A DNA stretch of 64,000 bases from Lucinisca nassula (Eukaryota > Mollusca > Bivalvia > Lucinida > Lucinidae): assembly GCA_963580285.1 (NCBI GenBank), contig OY757011.1, positions 156,415,245 through 156,479,244 on the forward strand, read 5' to 3'. The position numbers and the translations under genes were made by a program. Below are positions 4,931-61,798 of this stretch, one piece after another. The notes beneath the pieces were generated by a model. The model searched no databases and was not told the DNA's origin. It saw only the letters and a program-made list of their open reading frames with translations. The stretch's first letter is position 1. The number at the start of each line of letters is the position of its first letter.

Positions 4931-5148
4931 TAAATACAGTGTATGTCCTGTGGTGTCTTAACTCCGATCGTAACTATACGTGTACTATAAAGGCAGTATA
5001 CGAGACTAAAATATACGCATCATTTGTTTATTTTACAGCTTTTTATGCATTGTAGGGTATTTTTTTTTTGTTTTATTTGATGGGTAAAACATAGTAAATT
5101 AAGGAGTCCTGTGGTGTCTTGCGGTGAACAGAATGACAGGCTGACCAC

Positions 5149-6540
5149 AGTAATAAATGATTGGGTAAAAATCTTAGACAAAGGAGGACAGGTGGATACC
5201 TTTATCCTGGATTTTGAAAAAGCTTTTGATACCCCATCATGAACTACTAAAAAGCAAACTATATTGTTACGGCATTGGCAGAAATACCCTAAAATGGATA
5301 GATTCCTTCCTTTGCTACAGAAAACAGTGAGTTGTTGCAAATGGGGAAACTTCAGGGTGAGCTCCAGTTTTGTCTGGTGTCCCACAAGGGACTGTTTTGG
5401 GTCCATTGTTGTTTTCTTTTTATATAAATGACAATTCTACTGATATTGATTGCGAAATAAGATGACTGTGTTTGCTACCATGAAATTAGAAACGCAGCGG
5501 ACTCGTTGGAACTTCAGAGGGATACAGGTAGATTAGGCTGTTGGGCTAGAAAATGGGGAATGAGATTTCAGCCAGTTACCGTAAGTGCAATATCATGCAG
5601 ATAACTAGGAAAAGAACATACAAAATTTAGGCTTCTTACACTTTAGAGGGTATGGTCCTCGAAAATGTGGATTCCATTAAATAACTTGGTGTGACCATCT
5701 CACATGACTTGAGATGGAATACTCATATTAGCAACATGTGTACTATGGCTAATAGAACTCTTGGCTTCTTGAGGAGAAATCTTTATCAATGCCCAAAGAT
5801 GTTAAAGAAGCAGCATATAAGGGACTCGTTCGCTATATCTTGGAATATGGTAGTTGTGTCTGGGACCTTCATGGACTAGTCCTTCAGGAGATTGATAAAG
5901 TTCAGAATAGGGCTGCTAGATTTGTTACGAGCAATTACAGCATTGAAACTGGAAATATGACTGGAATACTGAAACTGAAAAACTTAGATGGGAGTCCCTC
6001 GAGAAAAGGAGGAGAGACAGTAGGCTAATACCCTTGTACAAAGGCCTAAAAGGTGCTGCCAGTATTCCAACAGATGACCTTATCCCTCCAATTAGGAGTG
6101 AGTGGCAGAAAGCATCACTCTTTGGCATTTCAGGTGCCCTCTGCAAGAACTGACATCTACAGGCAGACAATTAGAGATTGGAATGCCCTTCCAGATTCAG
6201 TTATTTCATCCACAGAAGGTGCTAAGGATAAGGTACATATAGCTAAGTTTACTTCTTTGGTGAGAGCTAGGGACTAACTTCCCTTTTCACAGGTTCTGGT
6301 GAATGACTTATTTGACCTGTCACCAGTAATGATTCAGATTCAGACTGACATCTACAAGGAATCATTCTTCCCTCAGACAATTAGAGGTTGGAATGCCCTT
6401 CCAGATTTGATTTTCTCATCTGCGGAAAGTGCTAAGGATAATGTAGCTAAGTTTACTTCTTTGGTGAGAGCTGGGAACTAACTTCCCTTTTCACAGGTCC
6501 TTTTGAGTTGATGTCATTTGATGTGTCACCAGTAGCGATT
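5149..6540 (+). mobile_element. Non-LTR retrotransposon (LINE) remnant, reverse transcriptase core and 3' end
   Basis: Continues the LINE after the hAT insertion. Visible blocks: FILDFEKAFDT (catalytic motif A region), SGVPQGTVLGPLLFSFYIND (motif B), a degraded FADD region with stops near 5460, LGVTISHDLRWNTHI, RRNLYQCPKDVKEAAYKGLV, YILEYGSCVWD and the C-terminal QTIRDWNALPDS. Several frameshifts and stops make it a dead copy. The last 190 bp or so of coding sequence is tandemly duplicated (6148-6276 and 6335-6481). Confidence 0.85.
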
Positions 6541-18604: not shown

Positions 18605-18803
18605 ATGGGTATCTCTGACAGAAGACAGAAACAGGATGTTACCCAGTCTAGGAATAGACACACAGAACCAGTCAATGATGTTGGTAAATTTGAGAGATTA
18701 TTTGGCTTCAAGACCTCCGATCTTTCCAGCTGGGAGTCTTTTTATAAGCTAATGTGTCGCCCATGTGACCCTGCTTTACTGGGCTGGACTAGAGTCAGCT
18801 TCA
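18605..18803 (+). CDS. GGCX: GGCX coding exon 1 (N-terminus, residues 1-66)
   Basis: Begins at the ATG at 18605 in a strong context (ACC before, G after); an in-frame TAA at 18590-18592 lies just upstream, so this is the natural start. The exon encodes 66 codons plus 1 nt. The first 28 or so residues are polar and not conserved. They are followed by a GGCX signature, FERLFGFKTSDLSSW, then the CRPCDPALLGWTRVSF segment leading into the first membrane helix (human NRPTDPASLAVFRFLFG). The donor GTAAGT starts at 18804. The sequence before the ATG ends a good pyrimidine tract with AG at 18559-18560, so the exon probably starts at 18561 with 44 nt of 5' UTR, spliced from an upstream noncoding exon that I cannot place. 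Confidence 0.93.
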
Positions 18804-21009: not shown

Positions 21010-21216
21010 CGTAAGCAGTTAACCAGTACAGTGCACATTCTTTCGCCAGAAACTGACAACTGCCCTTCTTGAATCAGCGGAAGGGAGAGAATGACCGTAG
21101 AAAAGATTTCATGATCAATCTCCACGAAAGAATGTTGCCGACCCCGCCGGGAGTCGAACCCGCGTCCTCCTGATCACCAGTCAGACGCGCATCCGACTGA
21201 GCCACTGAGGCCGGCT
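21010..21216 (-). mobile_element. tRNA-derived SINE
   Basis: On the minus strand the head reads GGCCTCAGTGGCTCAGTCGG, then GGTTCGACTCCCGGC (B box). A body containing CTGATTCAAGAAGGGCAG follows. It looks like a tRNA-related head rather than a functional tRNA. Confidence 0.7.
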
Positions 21217-23152: not shown

Positions 23153-23308
23153 GTTTCCTGATGCTGTTGGACATCTGGCAGGAGAGGGGTTGGGGTGATC
23201 TGGTGGAACTGTTTGGTGATGAGGAGGAATGTAGGTTCCCACTGTTTGACTTCCTCAAGCCATTGCCACTGGAGTGGATGTATGTTGTATACCTCACCTT
23301 GTGTATAG
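23153..23308 (+). CDS. GGCX: GGCX coding exon 2 (residues 67-118)
   Basis: Acceptor TTTCATTTCTTAG ends at 23152 and donor GGTAATT starts at 23309; phase 1 in, phase 1 out. Encodes the rest of membrane segment 1 (FLMLLDIWQERG), a lumenal stretch, and DEEECRFPLFDFLKPLPLEW followed by the start of the next hydrophobic helix (MYVVYLTLCIG). The CRFPL..LKPLPL.WMY motif is diagnostic for the family. C93 matches human Cys99, which forms a disulfide with Cys450 in the human enzyme. If the intron were retained, translation would run on about 60 codons and end inside the palindromic MITE at 23414-23511. Confidence 0.95.
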
Positions 23309-23413: not shown

Positions 23414-23511
23414 ACCCTTTAACCCTTATACCACACCCTACCTTTGCAAACAGTGAAGATCCAGATCAGATGGCTTCTGAAGAAGCCATCTGATCAGGAT
23501 CTACACTATTG
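23414..23511. mobile_element. MITE family A, truncated, 105 bp after the exon-2 donor
   Basis: TTAACCCTTTAACCC start, GCAAACAGTGAAGATCCAGA, the GATCAGATGGCTTC/GAAGCCATCTGATC palindrome, and an end near ACACTATTGATC. Confidence 0.7.
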
Positions 23512-23657
23512 ATCTTTTGATATATTTCAAATTTGCTAATATTCTTGTTAATGTAAAAGTTACTCACAGTTTTTCAGCCACATATCTATGTGTTATGTAT
23601 AATGTAATGTACTTTCTATGTGCTTTAATGGTTTGGCCACTAATGAGATAAAGTTAA

Positions 23658-23862
23658 CCCTTCTCTTGCTGAATATTCATTTTAGCCACACCCATCTCTG
23701 ACTTTGAACCAATCAGATTACTTGATGTCATTTATTCCTGCAAATTCATAAACTGAATGTCAAACAGTGTAGATCCTGATCAGATGGCTTCTTCAGAAGC
23801 CAACTGATCTGGATCTACACTGTTTGCAAAGATTGGGGTTGTCGTGAACAGCAAGATAAGGG
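23658..23862. mobile_element. TTAA-flanked MITE, family A
   Basis: TTAA at 23654-23657 and 23863-23866; starts CCCTTCTCTTGCTGA and ends GCAAGATAAGGG, with the standard interior and palindromic core. Confidence 0.82.
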
Positions 23863-24055: not shown

Positions 24056-24060
24056 ACGCC

Positions 24061-27000
24061 TCTTTCTGTTATGCAAGACAACATGAACCTTTATGTTATG
24101 TGTTCTATTATTAACAGGAGAACTGGGTTTGATGTTGGGCAGCTTGGGCCTGTTCCACAGATAAAGCTGCCTGTTGTATGTCACATAATGTGGTATTTCA
24201 CTAGTATCTCTTCATGTTACACAAGAGAAGCTGAAACAACTACAGAACCTTTTGTGTTATTCTTTTTATATCAGGTGTTAGGCCTGTTCTACAGACTGAG
24301 CTGTCTACTGTATGTTATATGTTACTGGTATGTCTACCTTTTATACAAAATGAGATGTAACTAATCATACCTTTATGTTATGTGTTCTGTGATTTACAGG
24401 AGAACTGGTTTTGATGCTGGGCCTGTTCTGCAGATTGAGCTGTCTTCTATTAATTATGTACAGTAAAATTCTTATATTAAGACCACCTTTGGGAATGTTA
24501 ATCAGGAGAACTGGGTTTGATGTGAAGCCTGTTTTATCTATTGAGCTGTCTTCTGTATGTTGTCTGTTACTACTTGTATGTAATATGTTACTGGTACCTC
24601 TTCCTGTTAGACAAGACAAGATACAACAGCTACATGTTCCTTTATGTTATATGTTTTGTTATTACCAGGAGAACTGGGTTTGATGTTAGGCCTGTTCTAC
24701 AGACTGAACTGTCTACTATATGTAATATGTTACTGGTATCTCTTCCTGTTAGACAAGACTAGATACAACAGCTGCATGTTCCTTTATGTTATATGTTTTG
24801 TTATTACCAGGAGAACTGGGTTTGATGTTAGGCCTGTTCTACAGACTGAACTGTCTACTATATGTAATATGTTACTGGTACCTCTTCCTGTTAGACAAGA
24901 CAAGATACAACAGCTACATGTTCCTTTATGTTAAATGTTTTGTTATTTCCAGGAGAACTGGGTTTGATGGTAGGTCAGTTCTACAGACTGAACTGTCTAC
25001 TATATGTAGTATGTTACTGGTACGTCTTCCTGTTAGACAAGACAAGATACAACAGCTACATGTTCCTTTATATTATATGTTTTGTTATTGCCAGGAGAAC
25101 TGGGTTTGATGGTAGGTCAGTTCTACAGACTGAACTGTCTACTATATGTAATATGTTACTGGTACCTCTTCCTGTTAGACAAGACAAGATACAACAGCTA
25201 CATGTTCCTTTATATTATATGTTTTGTTATTTCCAGGAGAACTGGGTTTGATGGTAGGTCAGTTCTACAGACTGAACTGTCTACTATATTTAGTATGTTA
25301 CTGGTACCTCTTCCTGTTAGACAAGACAAGATACAACAGCTACATGTTCCTTTATATTATATGTTTTGTTATTTCCAGGATAACTGGGTTTGATGGTAGG
25401 TCAGTTCTACAGACTGAACTGTCTACTATATGTAGTATGTTACTGGTACCTCTTCCTGTTAGACAAGACAAGATACAACAGCTACATGTTCCTTTATGTT
25501 ATATGTTTTGTTATTACCAGGAGAACTGGGATTGATGGTAGGCCTGTTCTACTGACTGAGCTCTCTACTATATGTAGTATGTTACTGGTACCTCTTCCTG
25601 TTAGACAAGACAAGATACATGTTCCTTTATGTTATATGTTTTGTTATTACCAGGAGAACTGGGTTTGATGTTAGGCCTGTTCTACAGACTGAACTGTCTA
25701 CTTTATGTAATATGTTACTGGTATCTCTTCCTGTTAGACAAGACTAGATACAACAGCTGCATGTTCCTTTATGTTATATGTTTTGTTATTACCAGGAGAA
25801 CTGGGTTTGATGTTAGGCCTGTTCTACAGACTGAACTGTCTACTATAAGTAATATGTTACTGGTACCTCTTCCTGTTAGACAAGACAACAGCTACATGTT
25901 CCTTTATGTTAAATGTTATGTTATTTCCAGGAGAACTGGGTTTGATGGTAGGTCAGTTCTACAGACTGAACTGTCTACTATATGTAGTATGTTACTGGTA
26001 CGTCTTCCTGTTAGACAAGACAAGATACAACAGCTACATGTTCCTTTATATTATATGTTTTGTTATTGCCAGGAGAACTGGGTTTGATGGTAGGTCAGTT
26101 CTACAGACTGAACTGTCTACTATATGTAATATGTTACTGGTACCTCTTCCTGTTAGACAAGACAAGATACAACAGCTACATGTTCCTTTATATTATATGT
26201 TTTGTTATTTCCAGGAGAACTGGGTTTGATGGTAGGTCAGTTCTACAGACTGAACTGTCTACTATATGTAGTATGTTACTGGTACCTCTTCCTGTTAGAC
26301 AAGACAAGATACAACAGCTACATGTTCCTTTATATTATATGTTTTGTTATTTCCAGGATAACTGGGTTTGATGGTAGGTCAGTTCTACAGACTGAACTGT
26401 CTACTATATGTAGTATGTTACTGGTACCTCTTCCTGTTAGACAAGACAAGATACAACAGCTACATGTTCCTTTATGTTATATGTTTTGTTATTACCAGGA
26501 GAACTGGGATTGATGGTAGGCCTGTTCTACTGACTGAGCTCTCTACTATATGTAGTATGTTACTGGTACCTCTTCCTGTTAGACAAGACAAGATACATGT
26601 TCCTTTATGTTATATGTTTTGTTATTACCAGGAGAACTGGGTTTGATGTTAGGCCTGTTCTACAGACTGAACTGTCTACTATATGTAATATGTTACTGGT
26701 ATCTCTTCCTGTTAGACAAGACTAGATACAACAGCTGCATGTTCCTTTATGTTATATGTTTTGTTATTACCAGGAGAACTGGGTTTGATGTTAGGCCTGT
26801 TCTACAGACTGAACTGTCTACTATATGTAATATTTTACTGGTACCTCTTCCTGTTAGACAAGACAAGATACAACAGCTACATGTTCCTTTATGTTATATG
26901 TTTTGTTATTACCAGGAGAACTGGGATTGATGGTAGGCCTGTTCTACTGACTGAGCTGTCTACTATATGTAATATGTTACTGGTATCTCTTCCTGTAAGA

Positions 27001-27116
27001 CAAGACAGGCTGAACTGTCTACTATATGTAATATCTTACTGGTATCTCTTCCTGTTAGACAAGACTAGATACAACAGCTGCATGTTCCTTTATGTTATAT
27101 GTTTTGTTATTACCAG
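24061..27116 (+). repeat. Tandem array of truncated GGCX exon-3 copies in intron 2
   Basis: Each unit has about 47 nt of intron tail ending in a TTATTACCAG- or TTATTTCCAG-type acceptor, then the first 95 nt or so of exon 3 ([13 protein letters not shown].. to ..FLLDKTR). It then jumps back to intron sequence. The usual period is 142 bp. Acceptor-bearing unit starts are 24118, 24275, 24400, 24506, 24669, 24811, 24953, 25095, 25237, 25379, 25521, 25654, 25796, 25931, 26073, 26215, 26357, 26499, 26632, 26774 and 26916. A partial unit follows at about 27006, then the complete exon at 27117. The first four are diverged, the others nearly identical. No unit carries the WNNH codons or the real donor. 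Since 142 is not a multiple of 3, read-through changes frame and meets TGA (in AACTGGGTTTGA) within two units. Confidence 0.92.
24669..26631 (+). repeat. Higher-order repeat (about 980 bp, 7 units) inside the exon-3 array
   Basis: Units starting at 24953, 25095, 25237, 25379, 25521, 25654 and 25796 recur exactly 978 bp later (25931 to 26774) with the same private variants: GGATAACTGG at 25379 and 26357, GGGATTGATGG at 25521 and 26499, and a 9-bp deletion before 25654 and 26632. The 24669 and 24811 units recur at 985 bp. A seven-unit block was therefore duplicated recently as a whole. Confidence 0.9.
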
Positions 27117-27282
27117 GAGAACTGGGTTTGATGTTAGGCCTGTTCTACAGACTGAGCTGTCTACTATATGTAGTATGTTACTGGTACCTCTTCCTGTTAG
27201 ACAAGACAAGATGGAACAACCACAGCTATCTGTATGGTCTCCTGGGCTTCATGTTTCTTATCACAGATGCTAACAGATATTG
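27117..27282 (+). CDS. GGCX: GGCX coding exon 3, the only complete copy (residues 119-174)
   Basis: Acceptor TTATTACCAG ends at 27116; donor TG|GTAAAC at 27283. The exon is 166 nt, phase 1 in and phase 2 out. It encodes [19 protein letters not shown] and [11 protein letters not shown] (two hydrophobic segments), then [14 protein letters not shown] and ..LITDANRYW. This matches human residues 125-180, including His160 (here H154) in the WNNHSYLYG motif. It is the last and only full-length member of a tandem array. The preceding copies stop matching right after DKTR, lose the WNNH motif and have no matching donor. Only splicing from exon 2 to this acceptor gives an open reading frame that continues into exon 4. 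Confidence 0.95.
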
Positions 27283-55701: not shown

Positions 55702-55780
55702 GTCTTTAGATGGCCTTCTGTTCAAGAGAAAGAGAAACTCTCATATACCATTGTGGAACTATACACTGTTTCGCTTCCAG
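55702..55780 (+). CDS. GGCX: GGCX coding exon 4 (residues 174-200)
   Basis: Acceptor ATTTTCTACAG ends at 55701 and donor CAG|GTAATG at 55781. The first G completes the split Trp codon from exon 3. The exon then encodes SLDGLLFKRKRNSHIPLWNY and TLFRFQ, matching human [20 protein letters not shown]. It is separated from exon 3 by a 28.4-kb intron filled with nested mobile elements, and ends in phase 0. A Tc1/mariner-like MITE ends about 40 bp upstream of the acceptor. Confidence 0.93.
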
Positions 55781-61691: not shown

Positions 61692-61798
61692 ACATTTCTG
61701 CTGTATTTTATTGCTGGTCTGAAGAAGCTAGACTTGGATTGGGTATCAGGATATTCCATGCATAAAATAGCTCATAGCTATGTCTTTGCTCCTTTCAA
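61692..61798 (+). CDS. GGCX: GGCX coding exon 5 with the catalytic lysine (residues 201-236)
   Basis: Acceptor TTCTTTTTCAG ends at 61691; donor AA|GTAAGT at 61799. Phase 0 in, phase 2 out. Encodes TFLLYFIAGLKKLDLDW followed by VSGYSMHKIAHSYVFAPF. The AGxKKLDxDWxxGYSM motif contains the lysine pair equivalent to human K217/K218; K218 is the active-site base that deprotonates vitamin K hydroquinone, and K212 is its counterpart here. This indicates the encoded enzyme is catalytically competent as far as it can be seen. Confidence 0.95.

Follow-up and report, generated by a model that had tools for sequence, protein, structure and literature searches.

Where many near-identical splice acceptors lie upstream of a single donor, which site does the spliceosome pick, and does the number of decoys matter? 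The question is posed by the GGCX gene of the bivalve Lucinisca nassula, in which an array reaching from ~24059 to ~27080 consists of 21 truncated copies of the intron 2/exon 3 boundary, placed 5' of the complete exon 3. All positions are those of the window, i.e., the whole stretch of DNA that was analyzed (64,000 nt).

The array in intron 2 of GGCX

Five coding exons, all on the plus strand, were joined into a stop-free frame of 235 residues: i) the first coding exon in the window at 18605-18803 (MGISDRR...TRVSF), whose frame is open into the later exons and within which, at residue 27 of the joined protein, the alignment to the PDB GGCX chain begins; ii) exon 2 in the numbering of the initial annotation, at 23153-23308 with the donor TAG|GTAATT; iii) exon 3 at 27117-27282, the sole complete copy, with the donor TTG|GTAAAC; iv) exon 4 at 55702-55780; and v) exon 5 at 61692-61798. 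Exons 2, 4 and 5 were placed by the joined-frame reading and the PDB match, and exon 3 by PDB and Pfam matches. Intron 2 spans 3808 nt and intron 3, which precedes exon 4, spans 28.4 kb. In sequence comparison, residues 27-235 of the joined protein aligned with residues 32-241 of the PDB GGCX chain 13ib_A (which we take to be human GGCX) at E 2.2e-77, thus the gene had been correctly identified as GGCX from the start. Exons 2 and 3 taken alone also matched PDB GGCX chains and, at E 8.8e-43, the Pfam HTTM family; the HTTM/vitamin K-dependent carboxylase signature of GGCX was found via both Pfam and PDB. Among the best matches, the named proteins belonged to snails, a fish and an insect and were much alike in identity (52-55%), and the sole named bivalve match (Pecten maximus, P0061) covered exons 4-5 only. 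At Rfam gathering scores the region of 18-34 kb yielded nothing beyond one tRNA match in intron 1 (RF00005, 32.8 bits; 21139-21211, minus strand), possibly a tRNA-derived short element.

Scanning for the motif AG|GA(G/T)AACTGG returned 21 boundaries, of which 20 are truncated and one, at 27117, is the real one; a further truncated copy, whose exon side runs from 24275, has lost ~14 nt 3' of its CAG. The count of 21 truncated copies ahead of one complete exon, as first annotated, was thus borne out, and so was the CAG acceptor ascribed to every copy (present at 22 of 22 boundaries). Tandem Repeats Finder (TRF) reported 24577-27007 at a score of 4148 (period 142, 17.3 copies, 93% matches), so the array is not due to chance. 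The young unit measures 142 nt, composed of ~47 nt that include the whole acceptor and of the first 95-96 nt of exon 3. Spacing between successive boundaries was 142 nt in 13 of 21 intervals, the rest being 133 nt (twice), 135 nt, 201 nt, and 106 to 163 nt for the four that begin at old units.

From left to right on the plus strand, the array starts with the tail of one further, otherwise lost copy (24059-24088; 26 of 30 aligned positions identical to exon 3 at 27187-27217 with one gap, and none of 2000 shuffles as good). It is followed by four older, more diverged truncated copies (24089-24632; exon sides from 24118, 24275, 24400 and 24506), the first two of which retain more of exon 3. Two near-identical blocks of seven young copies each come next: one at 24633-25617 (exon sides from 24669, 24811, 24953, 25095, 25237, 25379 and 25521) and the other at 25618-26595 (exon sides from 25654, 25796, 25931, 26073, 26215, 26357 and 26499). 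The last three truncated copies (26596-27004; exon sides from 26632, 26774 and 26916) are separated from the gene's own boundary by a 65-nt acceptorless unit fragment that is part of a local 59-nt duplication (27005-27069). The intron tail with the authentic exon 3 acceptor occupies 27081-27116.

The competing acceptors had been described as near-identical. Over positions -20 to +3 the authentic acceptor is indeed the same as that of nine of the 21 truncated copies (three of 21 over -40 to +3), but two copies depart from it, the one at 24275 at 10 and the one at 24506 at 13 of the 23 positions. Similarly, the claimed absence of the WNNH motif is right for the young units but wrong for the oldest-looking copies, in which the exon was kept through the WNNH codons: at the junction of the first and second units an ungapped match to exon 3 (38 of 46 nt) runs through 27225, amounting to 109 nt of exon with these codons included, and at the junction of the second and third units the alignment also extends beyond them. 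In all 21 copies exon 3 is cut short at its 3' end by 57 nt or more, and the exon-3 donor is missing. To that extent the description of the copies as donorless stands, except that a donor-like site is present at +17 in 11 of them. A search of the window at E 0.1 revealed no unit copies beyond 24059-27211. The boundary pattern had no exact match in viral contigs and none in bacterial and archaeal genome contigs, while the read-through ORF of the array, compared with 5.8 billion proteins, gave two candidates, neither of them at E 0.001.

Divergence and splice signals of the copies

The leftmost four units are the most diverged of the array: their exon sides matched the real exon at 67/82, 65/73, 50/56 and 72/80 aligned positions, with 19, 0, 5 and 21 gap positions respectively. 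On the other hand, units 5-11 and units 12-18 form blocks of 985 and 978 nt that share 974 identical positions and are set apart by four mismatches and seven gap positions, while units inside one block are up to 10 of 123 positions apart. The match through 27225 at the first junction indicates that the unit, in an early form, comprised 109 nt of the exon or more, WNNH codons included, and the young units have since lost part of that stretch. The seven-unit block repeat would reflect unequal exchange or slippage, or else an assembly error that falsely duplicated one block (the copy number is that of one assembly); given the differences within a block, the array as such is not the product of an error of this sort. 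An intronic CAAGACAA stretch, considered as the seed of the duplication, was dropped, being the tail of another copy.

Constraint on the copies was assessed in units 5-22 from -36 to +87, where 20 columns are variable. Relative to the real exon, the exon-side changes comprised four synonymous, eight missense and four stop changes, against opportunities of 58:175:19. Synonymous changes were as expected (p 0.77), whereas stop changes were slightly above expectation (binomial p 0.028, few events); by these counts units 5-22 gave no sign of coding constraint. Nor was extra conservation of the acceptor side detectable in units 5-22, with four of 36 columns variable on the intron side versus 16 of 87 on the exon side (p 0.42). 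Such a pattern of variation fits drift, and weak constraint is possible, the events being few and shared among duplicated units. If anywhere, the excess of stops leans to a poison role.

Translation predicts the outcome of splicing into a copy: from exon 2 through any truncated copy toward the real donor, a stop is reached first in 21 of 21 cases. It had been expected within two units (284 nt), which is the case for 11 of 21; eight more need up to 12 nt extra (19 of 21 within 296 nt), and the remaining two need 431 and 497 nt. In terms of exon length, the real donor lies 166 nt from the acceptor at 27117, 367 nt from the next acceptor and 509 to 3165 nt from the rest.

The donor-like site 17 nt 3' of the acceptor reads ATG|GTAGGT in eight copies (e.g., the 17-nt stretch at 24953-24969, plus strand) and ATG|GTAGGC in three. 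Eight of these 11 copies have a second donor-like site at +21, and in six the resulting 21-nt piece encodes GELGLMV in frame. Moreover, three copies offer CTG|GTAYGT, at +53 (24275) or +67 (24953 and 25931), delimiting candidate pseudo-exons of 53-67 nt (e.g., 24953-25019 on the plus strand, ending at CTG|GTACGT; also 25931-25997), all three of which would shift the frame to a stop. The +17 sites scored 7.8 or 6.2 versus 3.8 for the real exon-3 donor, a rough comparison made with a frequency matrix. Some copies could thus be recognized as small exons, with the +17 site outscoring the real donor. Around GGCX exon edges, seven comparisons for degenerate boundary copies gave no convincing array; a strong match at the exon 4 acceptor was discarded as a query overlapping its own subject range, and a lone 20-nt match upstream of exon 5 had E 0.013.

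Boundary arrays in relatives and in other animals

Protein searches with the joined exons and with exons 2 and 3 retrieved 63 and 18 proteins respectively (75 distinct), and a scan of all 75 for internal repeats flagged five. In one, the predicted protein P0045 (identical to the present exon 3 at 47 of 51 residues), exon 3 runs on into six additional copies of its 3' end with the donor region, which are spaced by 55 nt and read in three frames. In two others, P0059 and P0072 (identical to the present exon 2 at 44 and 45 of 52 residues), additional copies of the exon 2 3' end with its donor region come after exon 2 at intervals of 36 nt, five in P0059 and two in P0072; in both proteins the final copy is diverged. 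The donors in these copies are deduced from the peptides, because such peptides need those codons. Counting the real one, P0072 has three exon-2 copies versus six in P0059, on two contigs, an apparent difference in copy number; P0045 and P0072 may come from one genome. Of the remaining flagged proteins, P0051 and P0052 have short internal repeats upstream of exon 3, read from peptides only, and P0071 and P0073, which also represent exon 2, passed the scan unflagged. These peptide readings suggest repeated gains of boundary arrays in this one gene, which here affect the acceptor side and in a relative the donor side. They also suggest that, wherever an array is present, acceptor and donor lie closest together in the complete exon.

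The closest known systems are the "mirages" of lancelets, reported in Adh3, the globins BflGb6 and BflGb9, TnC and PGBD5 (PMC3087553, PMC3902484), which like the present array are tandem repeats across an intron/exon boundary (PMC3087553). Four elements of mirage anatomy were found in GGCX: i) tandem units joining an intron end to the adjoining part of an exon; ii) splice signals in many copies (CAG in 22/22, the authentic 23-mer in 9/21); iii) an authentic exon beside the copies (27117-27282, which continues the frame of exon 2 into exon 4); iv) homogenized units from which edge copies are excluded, the left edge being diverged and the central blocks near-identical. AG/GT signals in many copies and homogenized clusters with the edges left out are likewise described for mirages (PMC3087553). 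The likeness is greatest to BflGb6, where the unit also joins the intron 3' end to the 5' part of the exon, on the same exon side and at a similar size (150-160 bp), but where six and three copies are given, versus 21 truncated copies here (PMC3087553). Further differences from the mirages are the gene itself, the apparently different lineage and the donor-like site in half of the copies, and also the kind of evidence: a splicing outcome is reported for the lancelet arrays, while the GGCX array was read from DNA.

Other arrays resemble it in part. The dual-specific splice-site array of human polyubiquitin UBC also consists of splice-signal-bearing tandem repeats in one gene; there, as reported, the sites are used and give isoforms with variable numbers of ubiquitin units, whereas the GGCX copies are partial and lead to stops (PMC10809524). 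Fourth-exon duplications in the earthworm metallothionein clone Lr6F14 are described otherwise than as a boundary-spanning minisatellite (PMC12783039). Outside lancelets, boundary-spanning arrays were not found in the open-licence literature searched, and the lancelet cases have few copies. Mutually exclusive exon arrays such as the Dscam clusters are built of complete exons, each with its own donor. The GGCX array is like them in its many tandem exon copies with an acceptor in each; an array of this type was nevertheless ruled out, 21 of 21 copies being incomplete and without the exon end and donor. What is new is thus a case of the mirage kind in GGCX and, apparently, outside lancelets; the kind itself was already known.

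Explanations for the array

The array is probably an exon-boundary minisatellite with the anatomy of a lancelet mirage, grown by unequal exchange or slippage and mostly skipped as a passenger in intron 2. The probable skipping follows from geometry, as 27117 is the only acceptor whose distance to the real donor is that of a normal exon. Exon 3 would be recognized across the exon, the real donor after 27282 being paired with the nearest acceptor at 27117, and the 21 acceptors further upstream, with neither the second half of the exon nor its donor behind them, would be mostly ignored. Occasional use of an array acceptor would give transcripts with early stops, probably removed by nonsense-mediated decay. 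The copy number would then be free to vary at little cost, because the final, complete exon stays where it is when exchange occurs within the array. Of the three readings in the initial annotation (lowering or tuning GGCX output, a decoy sink, and tolerance owing to the single real donor), tolerance fits best since only 27117 gives a normal exon, while the other two find no positive support here. The copies show neither a sign of constraint nor detectable extra conservation of the acceptor, but the donor-like sites in 11 of 21 leave some room for these two readings.

Published splicing results point the same way when carried over to this array, a step that is itself inferential. Among competing human splice sites with both flanking introns above 250 nt, the upstream acceptor is preferred to a significantly lesser degree, from which the authors conclude that the sites closest across the exon are favored (PMC9225289); in the section concerned, the upstream preference of 3' sites in long introns is stated as reduced rather than reversed, and the preference for the shorter exon is one found for 5' sites (PMC9225289). 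In lancelets the AG/GT signals of mirage copies could act as cryptic sites and give aberrant transcripts (PMC3087553), and yet regular splicing is reported as undisturbed (PMC3087553, PMC3902484): the Adh and TnC mirages are reported to produce no aberrant mRNAs, and the same is suggested for PGBD5 (PMC3902484).

In an alternative model, the array is a splicing attenuator: some transcripts would use array acceptors, or an acceptor with an internal donor as a poison exon, and be degraded, so that copy number sets GGCX output. The exact match of nine decoys among the 21 with the authentic acceptor over -20 to +3, the stop that splicing into any of the 21 copies would reach, the +17 donor-like site in 11 of 21, the candidate 53-67-nt exons at 24275, 24953 and 25931 and the slight surplus of stop changes (p 0.028) are all in line with it. 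However, retention of the acceptors bears no sign of selection, exons of 17 nt are generally recognized poorly, and the donor-bearing subtype, lying within the duplicated blocks, may have hitch-hiked. Moreover, the lancelet arrays are reported to leave regular splicing unaffected (PMC3087553, PMC3902484). We therefore consider attenuation unlikely, and a regulatory role of the array, though possible, is equally unlikely and without support over drift. A broader and speculative version, in which boundary duplication recurs at GGCX exon edges of this animal group on both sides of an exon (the acceptor side of exon 3 here, the donor sides of exons 2 and 3 in relatives), the arrays are length-variable attenuators and the copies that gained donors are poison exons, strikes us as improbable; if it were true, GGCX output would differ among individuals according to their copy number.

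The array, or one seven-unit block of it, might instead be a false duplication in the assembly, such as two joined haplotypes. The blocks, only four mismatches and seven gap positions apart, could be allelic, and one lancelet mirage was apparently misassembled in a draft genome (PMC3087553). Yet units within a block differ at up to 10 of 123 positions and the old units at more, so the array itself cannot have been made by joining alleles, and similar arrays occur in the same gene of relatives; an artefact is hence quite improbable. Should the copies with gained donors be turning into new exons, intron and exon birth would be under way, as proposed for lancelet globins. The acceptor and donor-like site in 11 of 21 copies are compatible with that model, which is set out in PMC3087553, and in humans dual-specific sites are overrepresented in introns that lie within tandem repeats (PMC10809524). 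However, these exons are putative and the changes look neutral, which makes exon birth very improbable. Least probable of all is an in-frame microexon array, in which a 21-nt exon ending at the donor TAG|GTCAGT, available in six copies, would insert GELGLMV ahead of exon 3 and so create protein variants. Six of the eight copies with TAG|GTCAGT do stay open through exon 5 after the 21-nt insertion, while the other two give a stop; the insertion point, however, falls inside a stretch aligned gap-free to the PDB GGCX chain, and a higher-scoring donor 4 nt upstream (by the same rough matrix score) would cause a frameshift.

With the tolerated minisatellite as the preferred reading, the 21-copy case and the donor-side arrays of the relatives suggest that boundary minisatellites are a wider feature of repeat-rich animal genomes. 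Such arrays provide a natural series in which one donor is preceded by many near-identical acceptors, or one acceptor is followed by many donors.

Tandem arrays with units of ~90 nt or more make up ~48% of the window (30875 nt in 18 selected TRF intervals, 269-59797), and the 166-nt satellite arrays of intron 3 account for 17163 of those 30875 nt. Short palindromic stretches of the AGATGGCTTCTTCAGAAGCC type were seen by eye in intron 2, at 23440-23530 and 23760-23830; similar sequence recurs elsewhere in the window as NSVDPDQMASEEAI-like translated ORFs, and because of this recurrence the palindromes are probably a short mobile element. Broken ORFs at 5081-6274, judged by eye from their translations, look like a non-LTR reverse transcriptase.
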